11,842 nucleotides of DNA, from contig CAJXHQ010000043.1 in assembly GCA_913054485.1 (NCBI GenBank), positions 1 to 11,842 of the forward strand. The letters are read 5' to 3'. Below the pieces are notes generated by a model. It was not told the DNA's origin and did not search any database. It saw only the letters and a list, made by a program, of their open reading frames with translations. Position 1 is the first letter of the stretch; every line of letters starts with the position of its first letter. The position numbers and the translations under genes are program-made. Positions 430-11,842 of the stretch are shown one piece after another. Source of the DNA: an uncultured Paracoccaceae bacterium (GTDB taxonomy: Bacteria > Pseudomonadota > Alphaproteobacteria > Rhodobacterales > Rhodobacteraceae).

Positions 430-1191
430 CTACCTAACCCCCTCCATCATCAGCCTGCCGTCTGGACAGGTCGCCATCCTGTGCAGAGCGGCATGATGCG
501 CGGCAAAGTCCTCTGCCATCTCCCGCATGCGCTCCTCATATGCCGCCACCCTAGCCGCTGACTCGATCATCTCGCGGACTTCCAGTGCGGCACGGTCTGC
601 TGCGGCCTCGATGGCGGCCTCCAGCGCGGCCGCAGCTTCCTCTGGGGTCTCATCGGGATCGATATGCGGGACGCCCAGCGCTTCGGAGTCCTCAGCCTCA
701 AAGGCAGGGCGGAGATCCAGGTGAACACCGAACGGCGACACGGCGATAAGCTCAAAGTCGCGGGCGGCCTCGCCGAGGAGCTTCTGCACCGGCTCAAACG
801 CGGCCCGCTCCAGATCCTCCATAGCCTTGCCGGGCGCTGCAATCTTCGCCGAGGATTCCTTTTCGACCTGACGCAGAAACTTGCGCGCCAGGACGGCTTT
901 CGACTTGGCTTCCTTTAGGGCCGCGCGGAACGGCTTCACTGCGGCACGGGCGGCCAGCCAATCCCCCTTGCTGACTTTCTTGGCGTCGAAGGCTGCCTTT
1001 GCGACATCAGCCGCGGCCTTGGCTGAGTCCCGCCTCTCCAGCGCTTCCGCCTCCCGTGCTTGCGCATCCTCGACGCGCTGGCGTGCGGCATCCAGGCGGT
1101 CGTCACCGGATTCACCTTCATCAGCAGCGAAGGCCTCCGCCAGCAGTTCGGGGGCGTCAATGTGATCAGGCAGCCGGACAGTCGCCAGCAC
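430..1191 (-). CDS. coiled-coil protein of unknown function (uncertain start)
   Basis: I do not recognise a family. The 253-residue product is rich in Ala, Glu, Lys and Arg. About residues 30-135 have heptad-like charged/Ala spacing expected of a long coiled coil. A short mixed segment (FELIAVSPFGVHLDLRPAF) follows, then a second helical acidic stretch to the C-terminus. No signal peptide or membrane segment is visible. The start is doubtful: GTG at 1191 has a purine run (GAGAAG) directly abutting it, with no spacing for a ribosome site. The frame is open a further 12 codons upstream to the TAA that ends the preceding ORF. Those codons read STTHSDAQRREK, which looks like a natural protein N-terminus, but the only possible starts there are non-standard (ACG). 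So this is either the next operon gene, started weakly or by reinitiation, or a C-terminal part of the preceding ORF cut off by one stop codon. Confidence 0.6.
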   Translation of the reverse strand: MLATVRLPDHIDAPELLAEAFAADEGESGDDRLDAARQRVEDAQAREAEALERRDSAKAAADVAKAAFDAKKVSKGDWLAARAAVKPFRAALKEAKSKAVLARKFLRQVEKESSAKIAAPGKAMEDLERAAFEPVQKLLGEAARDFELIAVSPFGVHLDLRPAFEAEDSEALGVPHIDPDETPEEAAAALEAAIEAAADRAALEVREMIESAARVAAYEERMREMAEDFAAHHAALHRMATCPDGRLMMEGVR

Positions 1192-1227
1192 CTTCTCGCG
1201 GCGCTGGGCATCGCTGTGCGTGGTGGA

Positions 1228-2436
1228 TTACCGGATTAGCGCGACCGGGTTCTCGCCCAGCGCACCAGCGAAGAATTCATGATCATGGATCGCGGCCTCT
1301 AGGAGATCAGATGCTTCACATGTTAAGATTCGGGCGTTTTTGAAGGTCGTTTCATAAATGCGCCACGAAACCCCAAAAGGGGCGTTCGATGCTATAAGAA
1401 TAGAATCCTTATAGAGCCTAACGCCCCTTTTCGAACTCGTGACGCATTTAGCAACCCCTTCTTCAAAAACGCCCGGAACCGGTTTTGCCCCATCGAACGC
1501 CTGAAGGACTTCAATCCGGTGACGCCTTGCGGAGGGCTCAGAGGACCAGATGTCAGGCATGGCGCGGAAGGCTTGACGGCCGGAGTGGATCACCACGCCA
1601 TGACGGTCCCAACCGGACGCCAGAGCATTGCTGGCGATGTCCAGCTGAGTCATGCGGCCCTGGCTCTCAGGCTCGGCACCGGCGGCGATGGCGGTCGCCT
1701 GACCAATGTCACGGGACTCACCTTCATGAGTGCCCAGCGCGGACATGACTGCCTCTGCGCGGGCCTGTGCTTCTGCAGCGGCCTTGCCCTTTGCCATGGT
1801 CCTCACGTTGACGCCGTTCGCCCGGATGGTGACCTCGTGCCAGCCCTCCGGGTGCAGCTCCAGACCGCCGGGGATGGTTGCCATGCCCTCACCCCCGAAA
1901 CCTGAGTCAACTGCGCTCAGGACGTCGCCCAGCGCCGGGGAGGTCCCGCGCAGATCCTTGAGGCGGCGGCCACATGCGGCCCCGGTCATCTCTTCACCGG
2001 GCTGCACCAGCAGTGCCGGATTCCTGACCTCGACTCCGCCGTATTCGATGACGCCGCCCGGATTGCCCCAGAGCTGCATCAGGCGCAGCCCTGCAGCCTG
2101 CATGACCAGTCCGCGGCCGTTACCCTCCAGCGGCCACACGCCGACCGCCAGACAGGCTCCCAGCGGCCCGCCGGTGACGTTCCATTCCGACTTGGTGTAG
2201 ACGTCGTCAATCGCGCGGTCAGTCGGCACGGCGGACGCTCGGTCATTGAGGGTCGGGTCATCGGCTCCGCGGTTCACACCACGGGCGCGGCCATCGGGGC
2301 CGCCCTGCGACACCTCATCCTCACAGATCTCACGTCGCACGGATTCCACATAGGGGTCGGGGTGCTTATCGACATCCATGTTGACGACACGGCCGCTCTT
2401 CAGGATCAGCTCGACCTCAGCCTTCGGGTAAGACAC
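1228..2436 (-). CDS. C-terminal part of the element's superfamily 2-type helicase, in a shifted frame
   Basis: This 402-residue ORF starts (as drawn) at GTG 2436, inside the end of the preceding helicase ORF; the frame is open to 2508. Its first 85 residues match what I know as the end of the helicase core in phage/plasmid primase-helicase pairs: a DKHPDPYVESVRREICEDE segment (residues 23-41) followed by motif VI, Q44...GRARGVNR (49-56) with the arginine-finger candidates. That places it as the missing C-terminus of the 2417-4711 product. Residues 90-402 are a less recognisable tail; MPDIWSSEPSARRH and YKDSILIASN vaguely resemble the tails of related helicases. Residues about 321-369 are encoded by a 145-bp inverted repeat of much lower GC. 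As a separate protein it lacks Walker A and B and could not be an ATPase alone. Separate translation from GTG 2436 (GAGAG about 8 bases upstream) is possible, but a frameshifted single gene of about 1160 codons fits better. Confidence 0.65.
   Translation of the reverse strand: MSYPKAEVELILKSGRVVNMDVDKHPDPYVESVRREICEDEVSQGGPDGRARGVNRGADDPTLNDRASAVPTDRAIDDVYTKSEWNVTGGPLGACLAVGVWPLEGNGRGLVMQAAGLRLMQLWGNPGGVIEYGGVEVRNPALLVQPGEEMTGAACGRRLKDLRGTSPALGDVLSAVDSGFGGEGMATIPGGLELHPEGWHEVTIRANGVNVRTMAKGKAAAEAQARAEAVMSALGTHEGESRDIGQATAIAAGAEPESQGRMTQLDIASNALASGWDRHGVVIHSGRQAFRAMPDIWSSEPSARRHRIEVLQAFDGAKPVPGVFEEGVAKCVTSSKRGVRLYKDSILIASNAPFGVSWRIYETTFKNARILTCEASDLLEAAIHDHEFFAGALGENPVALIR
1331..1475. repeat. 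145-bp imperfect palindrome inside the helicase C-terminal frame
   Basis: Paired arms seen by hand: 1331-1345 with 1461-1475 (15 bp, perfect); 1355-1368 with 1437-1450 (13 of 14 pairs, one C/A mismatch); 1375-1386 with 1420-1431 (12 bp, perfect, AAAAGGGGCGTT); 1392-1398 with 1408-1414 (7 bp, CTATAAG); terminal loop 1399-1407. Internal loops between arms are of nearly equal size on both sides, so the whole is one long nested hairpin. G+C over 1321-1440 is 54/120 (45%), against 77/120 (64%) for 1501-1620. The leftward reading frame crosses it without a stop. No target-site duplication is obvious at the ends. Possible identities are an ORF-borne palindromic element, a MITE-like insertion, or a hairpin replication site. 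Confidence 0.85.
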
Positions 2437-4711
2437 ATGCTTGTCTCTCGGCGCGCTGCAGGGGGTGATTGAACAGCGCCTCCGCCAGCCGCTCAGCGTC
2501 GCGCACATATGGCGTTGTCCGACCGACGCCGGAGTGAACGCGGGCCTCTTTGAAGCGGTTGCTGCCCCGGTTGCCGTTCCAGTGCCCGATCAGCATGTGG
2601 TGGATGATCGCCGGGAAGACTTGACGCAGGAATTCGCCCGAGGCCATGGGGGCGGTCAGCGCTCCACCCTTCGCCACGTTCATTCCGGCCTCTGTGATCA
2701 CACCCGCTGCACCGGCAGCCGCTGCTGTCCGCACCCCGGCGCGCATGCTGTTCCTAACCTGGACCTTGAAGTCTTCCACGCCCAGCGCTGGGCGCCCGTC
2801 GCGGAGCCGCGGTGCCAGGATGCCGTGCGACATCCCCGAGTCGACCAACTGGACCCGGCGCACGCCTTCGCCATCCTGAACAATCGGGCTTCCCACGTCT
2901 CCGACATGGCCCTTGCCCCAGAGGCATTCCAGCTTGGCGATGTCCGCGGTCGCGTCGGTAAGGACGGTCGGAACCTGCGAATAGACCTGCGCCAGATTGG
3001 GCAGGTATGCGAGATTCAGATAATACCGGCCCTCTTCGCCAGCCGCGCTTGCCCGATGCACCTCGATGCCGGGCAGTGGGTCGATCAGGCGATTTTGGTC
3101 GCCGGGCTCCCCGGAGTCGAGCCCCAAGTCGTTGCCCGCAGCGGCCGCCGCAGCGTCCGCAGGAGCGAACGATTGCGCATCCCACGCGCCCTTCATGGCG
3201 GTCACAAGCACGTTGCAGATGTTGATGAGGGTTTGCACCTGCCCGTTGATCTCGCCGATGAGTCCGCTGCGCGCGACGATCTCCGCGGCGTCCATCGTGG
3301 ACATGTTGCCGAGATCCACCTTGAAGGCCCAGAGCACAGAGCGGGCCGCGATCAGTTCGGGCAGGGTCACACCAGTTCTCGACACGCCCGTGAGGGAGAT
3401 GCGCCCCGGCATGGTCGGCATGAGTGCCGCAGCATCGCCTGCCGCCTCCAGGGCCGGGCGCAGACTTTCGAAGGTTTCAGCGATGGCTGCCACCACGCGG
3501 GAGGCCACGGCTGGGGCGGCTGCCTCCTCCGCTTCCTTCTTCGCGGCCTTGGCGTCTTTCTCGCTCTTGCCCTCCGCTAGGGCAGCCTCCTTCGCCTCAT
3601 CGCCGATGTCCTTGATGTTGCCCAGCGCCGGAAGGTATCCGCCACCCTCGACTCCGTTGAGCGCGACATCCTCATATGCCCGAGCGACGGCCCGGCAGCG
3701 GGCTTCGACCGAGCCGTGCTGTAGGGAAAGATCCCAGATGTTCCGCACGTCATCCAGGCAGGACGTGAGGATCGAGCGGCCGTAGTCCTTCCGGCCCTTA
3801 CTGTCCCGCACCAGCGTAGCCGGCTGAAGCTCATCGACCCAAATGTGTGAGAAATCCGAGGCGGCAGGCTCATCAGGGGACCGCATGTCGTCCGCGATCC
3901 AGGTGTGGACCGGTTCATCATCCTTGCCGTCGAAATCCTCCCTCATGTGCTCGGGCAGGTAGACCTTCAGCATGGGCTGCCAGTCGCCGGCACGTTTGAT
4001 GGCGGCAGGTAGCCGGGTGAAGGCCTGACCGCCCGCCACGAATACCACCTGAGCCGCCGCCAGTTTCTGCCGCGCCGCGCCTTTGCCCGATTGCTGGCGG
4101 TAATAACACCAGTTCGCGCGAGGGTTCGATGCATGGGGGCAATGGGGGCACATGTCCGCGCCCTCCCCGCACAGCGACTCCAGACGGCCGCCAGCACCTT
4201 GAACCGCCAGCAGGTCGGCAAGGCGGCGGCAGGCCGGGATCTCGGCGCTGTCCACTGCGATGTCATCGTCTTCGGCGTCGGGGCTTGCGACCGGGTCCGG
4301 CTGCTGCGGCCCGATGTAGCGCGCCGATGCAATGCCCAGCGCGTCCAGCTCTTTCATGTGCTCTTTGGCGATGCCGTGCGATTGCGTGATGATCAGGATT
4401 CGGAAATTCGGATCTTCTTTCGCCCGGCGTGCGATCTGGTGAATCATGGTGCGGGACTTGCCCACGCCCATGTCAGCGCGCAGCACCAGCAGGTGCCCCG
4501 GTTTGGCCTTCCGGTGAACGGACTCACTGTCGATCAGAAAATCGGAGACCGCCTGCGCGACCTCATCGCGAGCACCTTCGACGTCCGGCAAGGTGTTCCA
4601 GTTTGCAGAGGCCGCAAGCCGCTTGCTCCTGCCTTCGCGGACCTCCTCGCCCGAGATCGACGCGTAGCCGACATCCGACAGAAAATCGAAGGGATCAGTT
4701 GTGACCGCCAT
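2417..4711 (-). CDS. superfamily 2-type helicase, N-terminal and central part (partner of the primase)
   Basis: The predicted product has 764 residues. ATP-dependent helicase motifs are in order: Walker A/motif I near residues 79-86 (ADMGVGKS), motif Ia near 105-115 (ILIITQSHG), a DExx-type Walker B near 289-296 (IWVDELQ), a TDATAD segment near 585-590, and HWNGNRGSNRFKEA near 710-723, which in relatives precedes motif VI. Four cysteines near 181, 188, 191 and 202 (C-x6-C-x2-C-x10-C) could hold zinc or an Fe-S cluster. A Lys/Glu/Ala-rich coiled stretch lies near 373-400. Motif VI is absent; it lies in the next ORF, one frame over, so the reading frame seems broken around 2433-2480. The start is ATG 4711, sharing its A with the primase stop (TGATG), with G-rich sequence just upstream; GTG 4714 is the alternative. 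Coupling to the primase supports a joint role in element replication. Confidence 0.75.
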   Translation of the reverse strand: MAVTTDPFDFLSDVGYASISGEEVREGRSKRLAASANWNTLPDVEGARDEVAQAVSDFLIDSESVHRKAKPGHLLVLRADMGVGKSRTMIHQIARRAKEDPNFRILIITQSHGIAKEHMKELDALGIASARYIGPQQPDPVASPDAEDDDIAVDSAEIPACRRLADLLAVQGAGGRLESLCGEGADMCPHCPHASNPRANWCYYRQQSGKGAARQKLAAAQVVFVAGGQAFTRLPAAIKRAGDWQPMLKVYLPEHMREDFDGKDDEPVHTWIADDMRSPDEPAASDFSHIWVDELQPATLVRDSKGRKDYGRSILTSCLDDVRNIWDLSLQHGSVEARCRAVARAYEDVALNGVEGGGYLPALGNIKDIGDEAKEAALAEGKSEKDAKAAKKEAEEAAAPAVASRVVAAIAETFESLRPALEAAGDAAALMPTMPGRISLTGVSRTGVTLPELIAARSVLWAFKVDLGNMSTMDAAEIVARSGLIGEINGQVQTLINICNVLVTAMKGAWDAQSFAPADAAAAAAGNDLGLDSGEPGDQNRLIDPLPGIEVHRASAAGEEGRYYLNLAYLPNLAQVYSQVPTVLTDATADIAKLECLWGKGHVGDVGSPIVQDGEGVRRVQLVDSGMSHGILAPRLRDGRPALGVEDFKVQVRNSMRAGVRTAAAAGAAGVITEAGMNVAKGGALTAPMASGEFLRQVFPAIIHHMLIGHWNGNRGSNRFKEARVHSGVGRTTPYVRDAERLAEALFNHPLQRAERQACVLPEG

Positions 4712-6156
4712 CACGCCACCCCCGCCGCAGGCCCAAACAGCCGGACGCCACAGGCCCCGGCCTTCCGCCAGAGGTCATCCAGATACCCGGCGAACCACGC
4801 CTCGGCTTCGTTCGTCGCATAGACAGCCGCGGCGCTGAATGCCGAGCTGGGCTTCATGCCGCCAAGGTTCTGATCCTTAATCATCGCCACGACGCAGACC
4901 GACTTACCTGCCTCTTGGAAGCGAGCCAGGAGCCGCAGCCCGTCCGCCAGATCCACCGCGAAGACGACGCTCTCGCCGTGCGACAAGACAACGACTCCGC
5001 CGTCCGCTGGACCCATGGGCCAGACCTCGCCGCCGGACAGGGGCAAGCGCACGATGCCGCCCACGGTGTTCCGGGCGACCACCACCGGGCCGAGCCGGGA
5101 GTCCTCATAGAACCGCAGTGCAGGTCCGGCGTTGCCGAAGCCTTGCCCCCGCATCCACGCCTCGCCGGGCGTGCCCTCGACGTCCTGAGCGGTCTTCCAG
5201 ATTTCCTCGGCGCGCATCCGGGTATACTCCGGCCCGGCACCGCCTTCATAGCCACCCTGCCGGGCAAGCCACAGGATCTTGCCGCCGGTGATCTCCTCCA
5301 CGTCGAAGGAGTCCCATTTGCCGAGCATCTCATCGGGATTGTAGGAGTCCGCGGTGCTCGACCAGCTATCCCAGAGGTGAAAGCCGTCATCATCCAATGC
5401 AGCCTTCAGGGCCATGCCGACCGCGATCCAGGTCTCGTATTCCTTTGGCTCAATGAAGGTCAGCATATCGGTGAAGTGTTCGGCGCTTTCGGAGAGTTGG
5501 CCCTTGATGCCCCGGCGCGCGAGGACCTCCTCAGTGGTCGGTTTCTTCAGCGCTTCGAGCAGGCCATCAGGTGCCGCGTCGATGTCGTCAAGGCTGCCCA
5601 GCGCGACAGAGTAGCGACCGCCAGACTTGTGCAGCGAGCCCGGAGCCACCACCCAGCCGGTCGATTTGAAGTCGATGCCGGGATATTCCTTCAGCGCGGA
5701 CTTCAGGCGCAGGCCTTTCGGCGCGGTGAAATAGAGGTGCCGCGAGCCGCCACCAGATCCTGTTTCGACGATATATCCCGCTCCAGCGACCTCAGGGAAA
5801 TCCGCGACCAGTTTCTCAAAGCCGATCAGGCCGCCATTCCGGGCGTCGATGTCCACGACCAGCGTGTCGGTTCCATCCAGTAGCACACCGAAGCTCTGAT
5901 CGAAGTGCCCGCCGTCCAGCTGAACCTGAAGCAGCGCGTCATGCGTCTGGTAGTCTGGGCGCGCGTCCTTGCGGTCCATCGGGTGCTTGCCCAACTGACC
6001 GCACGCTTCGCCTTTGTAGCAGGTGCAAGCGCCTTCGGGGGTCATCCGGTGCAGCCGAATCAGGTTGAATCCGGCCTCGACGTGATCCCGCGCGGCGTTG
6101 CGCATGCTGTCGTTCGCTGGCTTGGTGTCTGTGATATTCAGCATATTCTCTGTCAT
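4711..6156 (-). CDS. bifunctional DNA primase/polymerase (Prim-Pol) with PriCT-2 and a degenerate TOPRIM-like C-terminus
   Basis: The predicted protein has 481 residues. Residues about 20-200 form an archaeo-eukaryotic Prim-Pol domain: a Cys motif with GKHP (C44, C46, C52, then 56-59), the metal-binding pair D102/D104 in VVDID, catalytic H140 in GGGSRHLYF, and D162 in GIDFKSTGWVVAPGSLH. Residues about 225-300 match PriCT-2 (YETWIAVGMAL ... LWDSWSS ... KWDSF). Residues about 330-481 resemble a TOPRIM module (LRFYEDS, GGIVRLPLS, GPADGGVVVLSHGES), but the usual acidic residues seem replaced. Such proteins synthesise primers and extend them during element replication, beside a helicase, here the next gene. 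The frame is open to 6216, but MALQCRLQ... upstream does not look coding. I chose ATG 6156; ATG 6144, with an AGAGA stretch ahead, is a rival. Neither ribosome site is strong. Confidence 0.85.
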   Translation of the reverse strand: MTENMLNITDTKPANDSMRNAARDHVEAGFNLIRLHRMTPEGACTCYKGEACGQLGKHPMDRKDARPDYQTHDALLQVQLDGGHFDQSFGVLLDGTDTLVVDIDARNGGLIGFEKLVADFPEVAGAGYIVETGSGGGSRHLYFTAPKGLRLKSALKEYPGIDFKSTGWVVAPGSLHKSGGRYSVALGSLDDIDAAPDGLLEALKKPTTEEVLARRGIKGQLSESAEHFTDMLTFIEPKEYETWIAVGMALKAALDDDGFHLWDSWSSTADSYNPDEMLGKWDSFDVEEITGGKILWLARQGGYEGGAGPEYTRMRAEEIWKTAQDVEGTPGEAWMRGQGFGNAGPALRFYEDSRLGPVVVARNTVGGIVRLPLSGGEVWPMGPADGGVVVLSHGESVVFAVDLADGLRLLARFQEAGKSVCVVAMIKDQNLGGMKPSSAFSAAAVYATNEAEAWFAGYLDDLWRKAGACGVRLFGPAAGVA

Positions 6157-6270
6157 TTCGTGCTTTTTGGCGAAATGAGCGAGAAAAATAGGTTGCAGCC
6201 TGCACTGGAGCGCCATATCTTGGCGTTGTTCATGTGTGGTGTAGACTGTCGTCTTTACTCACTCACCTAG

Positions 6271-6299
6271 AAGGCCGGAGCGCTGGCGCGCCCGGCCTT
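6271..6299. terminator. GC-rich hairpin between the HTH gene and the primase gene
   Basis: An 8-bp stem AAGGCCGG (6271-6278) pairs with CCGGCCTT (6292-6299), with a GCGC/GCGC inner pairing possible. The T-rich tail (TTTACTTTTT) is on the rightward side, where no annotated rightward gene ends. Read leftward, the way the neighbouring genes run, the tail is poor in T. It may attenuate leftward transcription into the primase gene, or terminate antisense transcription. Confidence 0.4.
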
Positions 6300-6306
6300 T
6301 ACTTTT

Positions 6307-6795
6307 TCAGGCCAGTTCCTCTTCCTTGATTTCTTCTGCCGCTTCGACTTCGGCCGTCGCTGCTTCCGCTACCTTCAATCCATCGGCTTCCGCCAGGAGG
6401 ACGGCAACGCGATCTTCACGCGGTGTTTTGCTGATCCGGTCGATCAGGGCCAGCGCACGCGCCTCGCGCTCAGATTGCGCCTCCGCTTCCCCTTCCGCGC
6501 CCTCATGAGCAAGGTGACCGGCGTCGATTGCCTGCACTGCCGAGATGCCGAACCGCATGGAAGATTGACCGCCGCCCACTACCTCGGCGATCTGTGCCAC
6601 GCGTTCCCAGAACCGGCGATCCCAGACCTTTTTTGCGCCTAGTCGTCCAATGGCTTCCGGCACCACGCCGGTCTGCTGGATGCGATGAAACCCGGCGTAT
6701 GTGAGGCCGATGATCTCACAAACCGAATCAATCGTCACGAGACCACAAGCCTCGGCGGCGCGCTCTGTTGCGGCCATGTATTTCGGGCAAGTCAC
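6307..6795 (-). CDS. small winged-HTH DNA-binding protein (MerR/AlpA/Nu1-like)
   Basis: The 162-residue product has a MerR-superfamily-like HTH at about residues 19-70: TIDSVCEIIGLTYAGFHRIQQTG, then the wing GRLGAKKVWDRRFWERVAQIA. Sequences of this shape occur in AlpA-type phage activators, excisionases and the small terminase Nu1. The C-terminal half is helical and strongly acidic, ending KEEELA. The start is GTG 6795, supported by GGAG at 6807-6804 with 8-base spacing. It heads the leftward replication block and has its own promoter-like sequence. By position it is most likely a regulator of primase/helicase expression (compare AlpA in P4-like satellites). A small terminase role is an alternative, but it faces away from the portal gene. 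The DNA-binding fold is likely; the exact role is inference. Confidence 0.65.
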   Translation of the reverse strand: MTCPKYMAATERAAEACGLVTIDSVCEIIGLTYAGFHRIQQTGVVPEAIGRLGAKKVWDRRFWERVAQIAEVVGGGQSSMRFGISAVQAIDAGHLAHEGAEGEAEAQSEREARALALIDRISKTPREDRVAVLLAEADGLKVAEAATAEVEAAEEIKEEELA

Positions 6796-6815
6796 GAATC
6801 TGACTCCATTTTTTT

Positions 6816-6842
6816 AAACTAGCATTGTCGTCTGGGGGTCAA
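6816..6842 (-). promoter_or_regulatory. probable sigma-70-type promoter of the HTH gene and leftward block
   Basis: Read leftward: TTGACC (6842-6837), 15-base spacer, TAGTTT (6821-6816) with an upstream TG making an extended -10. It lies 20 bases before the GTG start at 6795. The 8-mer AGACGACA (6833-6826) sits in the spacer; the same 8-mer occurs ahead of the primase gene, so it may be an operator. The spacer is short, so strength is uncertain. Confidence 0.45.
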
Positions 6843-6961
6843 CATAGGTGAGGCGCCCTCCCGCGTTAAGGCCTCCAGCGAGAGTAAGTTCAAAAAAGTC
6901 AATGATTTTCTTTGGGGGCGTCTTGCACGGCGACAAGCAGCGCTTAGGTGCAGATACGAAA

Positions 6962-8161: not shown

Positions 8162-10018
8162 ATGTTTGAACGACTCAAATCCGCCATCTCTGGCGCCCCC
8201 GCATCCATCCCCGAGACCATCCCCGAAGCTGCCGCGGAGATCATCGACTCGCCCAGCCTACATGATCGCTTGAATCCCTCTGCATATCACCAGCACGCCC
8301 TGCCCGAGCAACAGGCGGGCTATCAGGCTGGCGATAATCACGGCGGCGACGCTGGTGCAGCTGCCGATCTCGGCTGCTGGGGTGGCCCTCCGCAGTCGGT
8401 TGATCTGGACGTCGCCCAGGCGGGCGAGACCGCCACCGGGCGCGTGATCGACCTTCAGAACAATTCCTCCAATGAAGCCGGCGCGATGCAGCAGCACGTC
8501 GCGGCCATCGTCGGGCCGCACGGCCTGAAGCTGAGCGCCCGCCCCGACTGGCGCGCAATCCCCGGCGGCACCGAAGACTGGGCGCGCGAATTCGCAGCTA
8601 CGCTTGAGTCTGAGTGGCGCGGCTACACCTCCAGCGACGCGAACAGCGTTGATATTCGCCGGATTTTGAACTGGCCGGCGCTCAGTGCGACGCTGACGCA
8701 ATCGGCGATGCAGCACGGCGAGATCCTGGCGTCGTTCGAGCCGCGGCGCAGCCCGCTGCCAGGAGAGATGCAGACGGCGTTCCGCATCATCGACCCGTCG
8801 CGCCTGTCCGATCCCAAGGATAACCCGACCGCCATGCGCGACCGCGACATCCGTCAGGGCGTGGAGTACAACAGCCAGGGCGAGCCGATTGCATACTGGA
8901 TTGCCAGCCGGCATCCCCGTGACCTCGCTCCCAGCACCGGGCGCAGCGCCCAGCGCAGCAAGCTGAAGTGGACCCGATACCCCAAGTGGGGCCGCAACGG
9001 CCGCATGCGGATCTTCCACGCCCTGGACCCCACGAGGGCGGAACAAAGTCGCGGCATCAGCCCGCTGGTTGCCAGCCTTCGCGCTGCCCGAATGCTGAAG
9101 CGCACAGAGGATGCGACCCTGCAGGCTGCGGTTCTTCAGTCGGTGATGGCTGTCGTGGTCCGCAGCAACGCCTCATGGTCCGATGTCGCGACGGCGCTGG
9201 GTGCCCAAAGCACAGACCCGCAAAGCGACGGTGTGAGCAATTTCCTCTCCGCCATGCAGAAGTTTCAAGCTGCGCGTGGATCTTTTTACGCGGCGAACCA
9301 ACCGAAGGTGAGCGGACACAACGCCAAAGTCGTGCATATGCTCCCTGATGAAGATTTAGAGATGAAAGCCGCTGCGGCCGGCAATGTCGAGATCGCCGGC
9401 TTCCTCAAAGAGATGCGCGCAGGTGTCGCCAGCAACCACGGCCTTGGCTTGGCAGAATACAGCGGCGATTTCAGTAAGGTTTCGTTCTCCGCAGCCAAGG
9501 TGTCCGGTGCCCTCTCTGCCCGCATTCAGGCGGGCCGCAGGGAACGCCTAATCACTCCCACCTGCCGCTGGATGTTCGGCGCGTTTGTCGAGGAGCTGCT
9601 GATCCGGCGCCTGGATCTTCTGCCGCGCGAGGCCACGTTCTACGGCCCGGAGCGGAACGCGATCCTGCGCAGTGTCTGGACAGGCCCGCCGGTCATCGAA
9701 CCTGATCCATCCAAGGCAGCCAAAGCCGCGGACCAGCGCCTCAGCAGCGGCTATTCCAGCCTTGAGCGTGAGGCAGCGCTCATCGGCGAGGACTATGAGG
9801 AGCTGATTTATCAGCAGGCCCGCGAACTGAGACTCAAGGAAGAGCTCGGCCTCTTCGAACTTGAGGCCAAGCAATCCGCAGCCCGCACCAGCCAGACGGC
9901 ACTAGATGCCGGTGATCTCGATGACGACGACGACGGCGAGCTCGGTAACAGCGACGACGACAACGGCAGTGGCGACAACGGCGCCCAGCGCAGCACGAAG
10001 GAAGGCAATGATGCTTGA
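8162..10018 (+). CDS. phage portal protein, lambda family
   Basis: The product has 618 residues. It matches lambda gpB-type portals (Phage_portal_2), which form the dodecameric ring at the capsid vertex through which DNA is packaged and to which the tail binds. Visible landmarks: IVGPHGLKLSARPD at 116-129, DPSRLSDP at 211-218, GVEYNSQGEPIAYWI at 233-247, FHALDPTRAEQSRGISPL at 285-302 (the typical R..Q.RG.S segment), YSGDFSKVSFSAAK at 433-446, and DPSKAAKAA at 515-523. The C-terminus is extended and ends in an Asp-rich tail (about 584-604), making the protein somewhat longer than I expect for the family. ATG 8162 is the first start in the frame; its ribosome site is weak. No terminase is found upstream and no protease or capsid gene downstream, so it stands alone among virion genes here. 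It overlaps the next gene by 11 bases. Confidence 0.88.
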   Translation: MFERLKSAISGAPASIPETIPEAAAEIIDSPSLHDRLNPSAYHQHALPEQQAGYQAGDNHGGDAGAAADLGCWGGPPQSVDLDVAQAGETATGRVIDLQNNSSNEAGAMQQHVAAIVGPHGLKLSARPDWRAIPGGTEDWAREFAATLESEWRGYTSSDANSVDIRRILNWPALSATLTQSAMQHGEILASFEPRRSPLPGEMQTAFRIIDPSRLSDPKDNPTAMRDRDIRQGVEYNSQGEPIAYWIASRHPRDLAPSTGRSAQRSKLKWTRYPKWGRNGRMRIFHALDPTRAEQSRGISPLVASLRAARMLKRTEDATLQAAVLQSVMAVVVRSNASWSDVATALGAQSTDPQSDGVSNFLSAMQKFQAARGSFYAANQPKVSGHNAKVVHMLPDEDLEMKAAAAGNVEIAGFLKEMRAGVASNHGLGLAEYSGDFSKVSFSAAKVSGALSARIQAGRRERLITPTCRWMFGAFVEELLIRRLDLLPREATFYGPERNAILRSVWTGPPVIEPDPSKAAKAADQRLSSGYSSLEREAALIGEDYEELIYQQARELRLKEELGLFELEAKQSAARTSQTALDAGDLDDDDDGELGNSDDDNGSGDNGAQRSTKEGNDA

Positions 10019-10232
10019 TCAGAACCTGACCCCCGCCCAAATCGCAGCCCTCGCCGATTTAGCTGACGACGCCGCCGGCGTGGCTGAACAGCCCCTGCCT
10101 GAGTGGATGACCGCAGACCTGCCGGAGGGCGACTTCGAACCCATCGCCACCCGCGTTGAACTGGAGCGGCACCTCCTCGCAGAGGCGGTTATCGTCGCAA
10201 CGGACAACCGCAGCCCCTGCCCGACCGTTTAG
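10008..10232 (+). CDS. small hypothetical protein after the portal, probably truncated by a TAG
   Basis: The predicted protein has 74 residues (MMLDQNLTPAQIAALADLAD...) and is acidic and helical. It starts at ATG 10008, or at the adjacent ATG 10011, inside the end of the portal gene, with AAGGAAGG just upstream. I do not recognise it. By position it could correspond to a small head-completion or joining protein, but that is a guess. The ORF ends at TAG 10230-10232. The same frame then continues 19 codons (AFLGEDLPPVTLPASAVLP) to a TGA at 10290-10292, which overlaps the ATG of the next small ORF as ATGA. That tight overlap suggests the gene originally ended there and that the TAG is a nonsense mutation, for example from CAG. 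Confidence 0.55.
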   Translation: MMLDQNLTPAQIAALADLADDAAGVAEQPLPEWMTADLPEGDFEPIATRVELERHLLAEAVIVATDNRSPCPTV

Positions 10233-10288
10233 GCGTTTCTTGGCGAAGACCTGCCGCCGGTGACCCTGCCTGCATCGGCGGTGCTGCC

Positions 10289-10366
10289 ATGACCGCCCGC
10301 ATGTCCCGGCTCCGGTTTGCAGCAGGTCGGCTGGCCTTACTCGCTTGGGGCCTCGGGTTCCGCTGA
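10289..10366 (+). CDS. tiny ORF (25 codons) at the end of the rightward operon
   Basis: The encoded peptide begins MTARMSRLRF and ends LALLAWGLGFR: basic at the N-terminus, hydrophobic at the C-terminus. Its ATG overlaps, as ATGA, the TGA that closes the extended frame of the upstream gene. Such coupling is the main support for it being real. No strong ribosome site is visible. The hydrophobic stretch is too short to be confident of membrane insertion, and no family is recognised. It ends 8 bases before the hairpin that closes this block. Confidence 0.35.
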   Translation: MTARMSRLRFAAGRLALLAWGLGFR

Positions 10367-10368
10367 CA

Positions 10369-10397
10369 CAAAAAGGGCGGCTCTCAGGGGCCGCCCT
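10369..10397 (-). terminator. strong intrinsic terminator of the leftward 65-aa gene
   Basis: Read leftward, stem AGGGCGGC (10397-10390) pairs with GCCGCCCT (10381-10374) around an 8-base loop and is followed at once by TTTTTGTG. This is a classic factor-independent terminator about 25 bases past the stop of the 10422-10619 gene. In the rightward direction the stem is preceded by an A tract but lacks a clear T run, so it may only partly stop rightward transcripts. Confidence 0.8.
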
Positions 10398-10421
10398 ATC
10401 TGATTCTGGTGTTCCGGGTGT

Positions 10422-10619
10422 TCAGGCCGCCAGCGCGGCCATCTCATCCGCGTATCGCTGGCGTTCAATCTGCAGCTCGTCGCGACGGGCTTCAAGTTCA
10501 GCGAGTTCCAGATCCACATCCGCGATGAGGCCGGCTAGATCCTCCTGGCTTCTCGGCTGCGCGCTGATGCAGGTCTTCGGGTCGGAGTAGTCTTTGACGG
10601 TGCTGGTGGTGGTGGTCAT
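10422..10619 (-). CDS. small coiled-coil hypothetical protein (65 aa)
   Basis: The product has a Thr-rich polar N-terminus (MTTTTSTVKDYSDPKTC) and a single amphipathic helix from about residue 24 to the end (EDLAGLIADVDLELAELEARRDELQ..., written here in part) with heptad spacing of Leu/Ile. It is probably an oligomerising coiled coil. The start ATG 10619 is well supported by AAGGA (10632-10628) 8 bases upstream, and a strong terminator follows the stop. It is therefore probably a self-contained transcription unit facing the structural genes. The family is not recognised. Small leftward genes beside an integrase are often regulatory or accessory, but no DNA-binding motif is visible here. Confidence 0.65.
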   Translation of the reverse strand: MTTTTSTVKDYSDPKTCISAQPRSQEDLAGLIADVDLELAELEARRDELQIERQRYADEMAALAA

Positions 10620-11048
10620 CGTGGTGATCCTTGGTTGATTGCGATGCCCAACAGCTAGCGCGAGCCAAAATGATTCGCAAGTCTTTGTTTTTAAATGATA
10701 AACTTACCAAATTGGCAAGTCGGAGCGGCAAGATCCGGCAATGCAGACCGGTTGCCGACCGGGTGCCTTACTGGGGCGATGGTAAGCGCACTGATGGTCG
10801 CAAACGATACGATAGAGTCAACGCCTTGGCGTAAGCTTATCGCATCACCCGGATGATGATTCGCATCTTTTGACGCCCAGCGCGTTACAGCATTGCGGTC
10901 TGCGCTGCAATACCCTAAATTCACTATTTCTGTGTCTTTAAAAGGGCTGTTTGTGTCTATGGTTTTTCGCAAAGCCCCTTGTTTTAATGCGTCTTTGACC
11001 TTAGTTTATAGGACAGACAATCTAGTTATCACAAAGGAACTCGACACT
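10620..11048. other. 429-bp AT-richer intergenic region upstream of the integrase
   Basis: No convincing gene is seen. It should hold the divergent promoters of the 65-aa gene and the integrase. It may also hold the recombination site or arm-type sites that tyrosine recombinases bind near their own gene. Seen directly: the 10-mer ATGATTCGCA twice in the same orientation (10670-10679 and 10856-10865), a near-palindrome ACGCCTTGGCGT (10821-10832) followed by TAAGCTTA, and CGGCAA facing TTGCCG around 10736-10757. A leftward 93-codon ORF with a TTG start crosses it but lacks good start signals. No tRNA was recognised. Confidence 0.5.
10995..11023 (+). promoter_or_regulatory. possible integrase promoter
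   Basis: TTGACC (10995-11000) matches a -35 box well; 17 bases on lies CAATCT (11018-11023), a poor -10 (AATCTA with an 18-base gap is equal). It lies about 25 bases before the integrase ATG. The ribosome site AAAGGA (11033-11038) precedes ATG 11049 by 10 bases. Confidence 0.35.
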
Positions 11049-11842
11049 ATGGCAACCGCACCTCGCAACGCTGACTTGGAAAAGCTCGCCGCTGGAGATT
11101 GGAGCCTCGGCGCCGGCCTCTTCCTCCGCGTCTCGCGGGACGGCATAAAGCGGGGGTGGCTGTATCGCGCCCGCCCCTACTCTGGCGCTGCGCCGAAGAT
11201 GTTCAAGATTGGCTCCCTACCGCCGATGTCCGAAGGCGACGCCATGAACCGCGTCAAGGCGATAAAGGCGGCCGTTGCCGAGGGTGCCGAGCTGGAGAAA
11301 TTCATCCGCCTGACCGATGGCATTGCGGACCTGAACAAGTTGACCGTCAAGGGCGCGGCCGAGCGCGTCCATGCCCGCATGTCTGAGGCCGAAGGCGGCA
11401 AGCGCACAACAGAAGCCCACCTCGCCCGCTGGATGCGCTCCATGGAACTGCACCTGCTGCCGCAGATTGGCGCGCTTCCGATTGCCGACGTCACTGCTCC
11501 GATGCTGGCAGAGGCGATCGGTAAGATCTGGCGCGAGAACAACGTCACCGCCCGCCGGATCATCGGGCAGTATGGCGCGTGCTTCGACTATGCGCAGGCG
11601 GCTGGCTCCATCCCCATGGAGCGCCGGAACATCGCCGAACTGGTGGAGCAGCTCCTCCCGAAGGTGGAGGCGAAGGTCAGACATTTTGACGCTCTGGCAC
11701 CCGAATCCGTGGGCGAATTTTACGCGGCCGTGCGCGATCTGGGCGACTCCGCCACCACCCTCGCCTTCCGCTTCCTGATCCTGACCGGCGTCCGGTCCGG
11801 TGAAGCCCGTGGTGCCCGCTGGTCGGAGATCGACATGCACGG
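11049..11842 (+). CDS. tyrosine recombinase / phage integrase (P4 type), 3' end outside the window
   Basis: 264 full codons are present and the frame is still open at the window edge, so the gene is partial by position, not by mutation. The N-terminal ~80 residues resemble the DUF4102-type arm-binding domain of P4-like integrases (LGAGLFLRVSRDG, GWLYRARPYSG, KMFKIGSLPPMSEGDA). Residues about 95-200 fit the SAM-like core-binding domain (RTTEAHLARWMRSMELHLLPQIG). The catalytic domain begins near 215 and includes FLILTGVRSGEARGARWSEID, with R249 as the first catalytic Arg. The HxxR and Tyr motifs must lie beyond the window. The enzyme would integrate and excise the element by site-specific recombination, often at a tRNA gene. 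The start ATG has AAAGGA 10 bases ahead and a TTGACC -35-like box. It is separated from the other genes and so is independently transcribed. Confidence 0.88.
   Translation, partial: MATAPRNADLEKLAAGDWSLGAGLFLRVSRDGIKRGWLYRARPYSGAAPKMFKIGSLPPMSEGDAMNRVKAIKAAVAEGAELEKFIRLTDGIADLNKLTVKGAAERVHARMSEAEGGKRTTEAHLARWMRSMELHLLPQIGALPIADVTAPMLAEAIGKIWRENNVTARRIIGQYGACFDYAQAAGSIPMERRNIAELVEQLLPKVEAKVRHFDALAPESVGEFYAAVRDLGDSATTLAFRFLILTGVRSGEARGARWSEIDMH

Follow-up and report, generated by a model that had tools for sequence, protein, structure and literature searches.

A nested palindrome of 145 bp, confirmed here as real and beyond chance, lies inside a leftward open reading frame on a contig that is probably a decaying prophage, and the frame runs through it without a stop. 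The window, that is, the whole stretch of DNA analysed (11,842 nt), is the complete contig C43 of a 692-contig assembly (3.8 Mb at 75% estimated completeness). As the best explanation we tentatively propose, at a probability of roughly 45%, that a foreign palindrome resembling MITEs or the Rickettsia palindromic elements (RPEs) was inserted in frame within the tail of a replication gene belonging to the prophage.

Geometry, stability and genomic background of the palindrome

The first-pass annotation of the window described four arm pairs of 15, 14, 12 and 7 bp with one mismatch that fold into one hairpin, and re-measurement reproduced them exactly (Table 1). Between the two complete arms of the palindrome, 53 of 73 aligned columns are identical, and the mismatches are not scattered but gather in internal loops (p 0.014), with no clear bias by codon position (14/48, 9/49 and 16/48). 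The G+C content is 48.3%, against 63.4% for the window and 66% for positions 1476–2800, which bears out the contrast that had been taken to suggest an origin elsewhere, although not the figure of 45% given for it. The other stretches of the window with equally low G+C (6098–6281, 6763–6925 and 10565–11109) are found between the main open reading frames (ORFs) or at their borders, so the low G+C of the palindrome need not mean that it is foreign.

Table 1 Coordinates of the palindrome, its arms and the neighbouring reading frames in the window
Feature	Coordinates	Strand	Remarks
Nested palindrome, whole element bounded by the outer 15-bp arms	1331–1475	.	145 bp; one hairpin
Outer left arm, 15 bp	1331–1345	+	15/15 pairs with 1461–1475
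Outer right arm	1461–1475	+	Partner of 1331–1345
Second left arm, 14 bp	1355–1368	+	13/14 pairs with 1437–1450
Second right arm	1437–1450	+	Partner of 1355–1368
Core left arm, 12 bp	1375–1386	+	12/12 pairs with 1420–1431
Core right arm	1420–1431	+	Partner of 1375–1386
Tip left arm, 7 bp	1392–1398	+	7/7 pairs with 1408–1414
Tip right arm	1408–1414	+	Partner of 1392–1398
ORF, 253 aa	430–1191	−	Same frame as 1228–2508; one in-frame stop (1228–1230) between
ORF, 426 aa, reads through the palindrome (residues 345–393)	1228–2508	−	Residues ~15–112 resemble helicase C-termini
ORF, 765 aa, upstream helicase piece with Walker A-like motif	2417–4714	−	Frame differs from that of 1228–2508
Primase: Prim-Pol (PF09250) and PriCT_2 (PF08707)	4711–6216	−	Domain matches

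Folding of both strands showed that the hairpin is far more stable than its composition would give. As RNA, the minus strand of 1321–1485 reached −84.4 kcal/mol (shuffle mean −43.9, z −10.8) and the plus strand of 1331–1475 reached −67.7 (z −11.7); with DNA parameters, the plus and minus strands of 1331–1475 reached −42.0 (z −9.5) and −47.6 (z −10.8), and in each of the four cases 0 of 200 shuffles were as stable. The comparison of fold energy with shuffled sequence, proposed earlier as a check, thus came out at a z of about −11. Synonymous recodings of the peptide encoded by the palindrome did not fold as well in any of 1,000 trials in each of three schemes (z −5.0, −7.6 and −5.7), indicating that the hairpin is not forced by the peptide sequence.

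To place the palindrome in its genomic background, we scanned 869,760 bases (0.87 Mb) of the same genome, taken from the window and from parts of 60 further contigs. Among gapped inverted repeats spanning at most 200 nt the palindrome ranked first, at 83.3 bits over 145 nt, and the runners-up scored 69.8 bits over 48 nt and then 48.2 bits. The second-best repeat is a 48-nt hairpin on contig C47 (L235:10237–10284), whose size suggests a terminator. Only this gapped scan separates the palindrome clearly. In the ungapped scan it leads narrowly, at 43/72 against 42 for the runner-up, and in GC-corrected fold energy of 160-nt windows (plus strand, 50-nt steps; 580 of 17,227 windows refined and structures inspected for 4 of the top 15) it comes first only narrowly, at z −5.4 against −5.3 for L213:374–533 on contig C24. 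The latter region contains several strong adjacent hairpins, perhaps an array of repeats or terminators in tandem. The number of unbranched pairs, 56 on the plus and 65 on the minus strand, is no outlier against the 56–60 found in at least 25 background windows; long unbranched folds are common in this genome, where many GC-rich windows reach 56–60 pairs. The palindrome had no match in Rfam at the gathering score, and a known RNA family was rejected: the four matches, at E 0.0006 to 4.9, were to microRNA models and fell well short of the cut-offs of these models, as any long hairpin would be expected to do.

The reading frame and its prophage context

The leftward frame of the ORF at 1228–2508 remains open through the palindrome for about 48 codons, as first described, and joins it in frame to the host ORF as in RPEs; the residues concerned are 345–393 rather than 321–369. 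The other two minus-strand frames contain one and five stops over the palindrome, and over 1231–1476 the frame of the host ORF is the sole stop-free one of the three. Codon-position G+C is flat within the palindrome (0.47/0.49/0.49), whereas in the same frame the preceding stretch (0.70/0.53/0.76), the 99 nt that follow (0.70/0.39/0.55) and the ORF at 433–1191 (0.78/0.47/0.72) have coding-like values. By its coordinates the symmetry centre, 1403, falls mid-codon, so that the two strands share an open register and their peptides look alike; the ORF at 1228–2508 consequently matches its own opposite strand.

This ORF had been read as the C-terminal frame of a helicase, which holds for residues ~15–112; the remainder has no detectable relative, and the upstream ORF at 2417–4714, which carries a motif that we take to be Walker A-like, is in a different frame. 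The two helicase pieces overlap at 2417–2508, and the one in-frame stop at 1228–1230 divides two ORFs of coding-like composition. The replication gene region (430–4714) therefore looks broken, and for this reason we consider the window probably to be a decaying prophage; the frame change and the stop at 1228–1230 may be sequencing errors. Rightward in the window, the region 8162–11840 contains a lambda-type portal gene and then short ORFs, and an integrase begins at 10893 and is cut by the contig end, with its central domain above the Pfam cut-off and its arm-binding domain just below. The low-G+C stretch 10565–11109 lies between the portal gene and the integrase. No tRNA was found in the window.

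Eleven helicase relatives were compared; in nine the open frame runs without interruption for 1,005–1,246 codons, and in the other two it has 339 and 699. A counterpart of the palindrome-bearing tail was not detectable in any of the 11 (residues 111–426 against their helicase frames, best E 0.42), and hence an empty site was seen in no relative. Residues 342–396, where the palindrome peptide lies, gave 26.9 bits against another frame of L183 (E 0.003 against that locus alone), a match on the strand opposite to the L183 helicase and one of many comparisons, which we took as chance. Neither the tail ORF nor the ORF at 430–1191 had relatives in viral contigs or in phage or plasmid records. No homologue found covers residues 345–393, and none was therefore seen that carries the same residues without a palindrome. 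An AlphaFold2 model of the ORF at 1228–2508 was uninformative (mean pLDDT 37.9).

Search for further copies

A mobile element would be expected to occur elsewhere, and the first-pass annotation had proposed a genome search for other copies; none emerged. The DNA search of the palindrome's own genome (75% complete) returned the window copy only, and searches of two genus and 394 family genomes each matched a single genome, its own. A covariance model in which both strands of the palindrome were aligned likewise found only itself in its own genome and matched that genome alone among 390 genomes of the order and 289 of the class; the genus, family, order and class samples overlap, and filtering was stricter in the order and class searches, so that weak matches can be lost there. 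No match at E 0.01 was present in phage and plasmid records. Matches at E about 5 (9 and 1 records, respectively; threshold E 10) covered 13–24% of the query and were taken as chance, as was the best short match in the own genome, 18 bp on contig C41 within a 550-residue open frame. Within the sampled data, the own genome being 75% complete, the mobile-element hypothesis thus fails its main test, the finding of other copies.

Pattern searches gave the same picture. The terminal-arm pattern occurred in 0 viral contigs and at six loci in genome contigs, none of which aligns with the palindrome outside the arms (L131 has the best local score, 30). Two of the six, L131 and L133, are long hairpins, and the covariance model scored them at E about 1e-5 and 7e-5, with L165, also unlike the palindrome, at 1e-4; because the model rewards any long hairpin, we do not call the scores of L131 and L133 homology. 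L131 is a member of a separate repeat family, the core of which is unrelated. Core patterns matched nine loci in viral contigs, none alike beyond the pattern, and two loci there, neither with a hairpin fold like that of the palindrome; the 14-bp pattern, which matched at least 120 stretches, was too loose to use. The 15-bp terminal arm, at no more than one mismatch, has one further site in the own genome (C140, one mismatch) and none in the genus mate, and is no commoner than its backward-read control, with two sites in the own genome and one in the genus mate.

The two long hairpins have features of their own. L131:1378–1519 and its copies L171, L172, L174, L176, L177 and L178 in genome G646 form a nested-hairpin family, of which seven copies were compared in stretches of 132–167 nt; there are also other, partial matches. 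The copies share a conserved ~59-nt tip (66–93% pairwise) but are less alike in the 30-nt outer arms (37–70%), and each compared copy has 24 or more pairs that bridge the tip. The tip contains an ACT bulge and then GA/GA, a motif that we take to recall a kink-turn, and the four loci of the family scanned against Rfam gave no match. L133:1095–1256, from a Lachnospiraceae MAG, is a very long hairpin with 30-bp perfect outer arms that lies mostly between listed ORFs; a putative 129-aa ORF extends 36 bp into it.

Origin of the palindrome and comparison with known systems

Under the insertion reading, an element of ~145–155 bp with 15-bp terminal arms would have arrived by insertion in the tail of the prophage replication gene, presumably moved via those arms by a transposase supplied elsewhere. 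Landing in a stop-free frame would let translation pass through and add about 48 residues, and the added peptide may have been tolerated in a poorly conserved tail or in a gene no longer used. In favour of insertion are the unusual stability of the hairpin and its first rank in the gapped scan, the lower G+C, the flat codon-position G+C between coding-like flanks, the one stop-free frame, the clustered mismatches and the small mobile palindromes described in the literature; the lack of a second copy in the searches, the other low-G+C stretches and the frequency of long unbranched folds in this genome speak against it. Signs of insertion at the borders are mixed: the terminal inverted repeats match in 15/15 bp, as in MITEs, but no direct repeat of at least 4 nt was found at the palindrome borders tested, the ends are not TA, and a search of the own and genus-mate genomes with the ends pattern found no partner insertion sequence with the same ends.

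Somewhat unlikely, in our judgement, is an origin as a former intergenic hairpin (a processing site, terminator-like structure or attenuator) in a spacer that separated the replication gene from the ORF at 430–1191, the frame being open by chance or because a stop was lost. The remaining stretches of low G+C in the window are positioned between or beside the main ORFs, all 11 helicase relatives have 104–181 residues after the conserved match, and the host frame stayed open over the palindrome alone in 430 of 5,000 dinucleotide shuffles, all consistent with such a history. However, the whole of 1231–1476 remained open in only 127 of 5,000 shuffles, and on either side the frame stays open and the composition remains coding-like. 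Nor does the hairpin itself look like an intrinsic terminator, which has a short G+C-rich stem and then a T run: the single weak site returned by the terminator scan, at the right border (stem 1492–1474, minus strand; 0.4 expected), is not the hairpin itself.

We consider it unlikely that the palindrome is a native phage structure under selection, either an mRNA hairpin (an RNase III site or an element of translational regulation) or a signal for single-stranded DNA replication or packaging. The location in a replication operon and the clustered mismatches, which resemble stems and loops, would suit such a role, as would the strand difference: over the same 165 nt, the fold of the sense (minus) strand is more stable than that of the plus strand (−84.4 versus −70.8), which could mean an RNA role, but six G-U pairs against two are too few to decide it. 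Against selection for a native structure, the covariance-model searches found the window alone and no relative with the hairpin, and the surrounding gene looks broken. The suggestion in the first-pass annotation that the hairpin serves the adjacent primase or helicase in replication finds no support beyond proximity to the primase: in the excerpted text of PMC4434180, the single-strand initiation (ssi) site of RSF1010 is a 40-nt, primase-bound sequence with a 21-nt hairpin region at nt 7–27, and the 145-nt nested palindrome resembles it in lying near a primase gene but differs in both size and shape.

A local inverted duplication within the gene, caused by template switching in replication and followed by divergence, seems improbable. 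An event in place would fit the absence both of further copies and of a target-site duplication, and an 11-bp flank at 1491–1501 is complementary to 1381–1391 within the left arm. However, the mismatches are clustered instead of scattered, and the atypical, flat composition of the palindrome makes its arms unlike the neighbouring coding sequence. That the palindrome is plain coding sequence, symmetrical by chance, or an artefact of assembly would suit a single copy on one contig of a fragmented assembly but is very improbable, as the shuffles and synonymous recodings refute chance symmetry and the arms agree in only 53 of the 73 columns, whereas artefactual inverted chimeras are normally near-perfect copies.

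A more far-reaching reading would be a long shot: a phage-borne coding palindrome outside Rickettsia and Wolbachia that is or was doubly constrained, both by hairpin formation in the sense transcript and by its peptide, for example a self-spreading in-frame element that phages carry between hosts and whose family is unsampled. If a clear in-frame palindrome were established for a prophage gene in a larger genome, phages would seem able to carry elements of this kind; being a single copy in a broken-looking gene, the present case is a lead and not a demonstration.

Several known classes of palindrome can be set beside this one. An integron attC site, considered for the GTTAGGC heptamer, was rejected by eye, because the order of the boxes is reversed with respect to that of attC sites. 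The L131 family of genome G646 shares a nested hairpin of ~150 nt and terminal 11-bp arms, the latter because the search pattern demanded them; its core is unrelated, it is multi-copy, and L131 itself lies between listed ORFs. REP (GTAG/CGTC) repeats, described in the excerpt of PMC3733652 as repeated palindromes of 20–40 bp, are ruled out by the 145 bp and the single copy. Among 10 of 18 literature matches on intragenic palindromic repeats and MITEs, none mentions Rhodobacterales, which is a weak statement on what is in print. Bacterial MITEs (Correia/NEMIS, ERIC, RUP and YPAL) are similar in size, relative A+T richness, terminal inverted repeats and stable hairpin, and the palindrome differs from them in its lack of a target-site duplication of at least 4 nt, of TA ends, of repeats and of a partner insertion sequence in the data searched.

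The closest comparison is with RPEs and their Wolbachia counterpart. Mobile palindromes of ~100–200 bp, some of them fused in frame with genes, have been described, and in-frame palindromic insertions, best known from Rickettsia and Wolbachia, are cited as a route by which selfish DNA gives rise to new protein segments; RPEs occur in many copies, partly as in-frame insertions (PMC10969869, PMC3767692 and PMC2229807, as excerpted), and measure 100–150 bp (PMC3767692 and PMC2229807). The palindrome is unlike them in that a genome holds many RPE copies and several species share them, whereas here a single copy is present and no family was found, and in that its host gene is part of a seemingly decaying prophage. 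Membership of a repeat family thus lacks support and, with no repeat in the own genome (75% complete) or its relatives, we do not file the palindrome as an RPE, although it appears to work like one. The likeness to RPEs drawn in the first-pass annotation therefore stands for size, symmetry, low G+C and in-frame position and falls short in that no second copy turned up anywhere searched. What the palindrome shares with RPEs and their Wolbachia counterpart is a length within the range of ~100–150 bp, a long stem-loop with terminal arms, and an open frame inside a gene whose frame it leaves unbroken.
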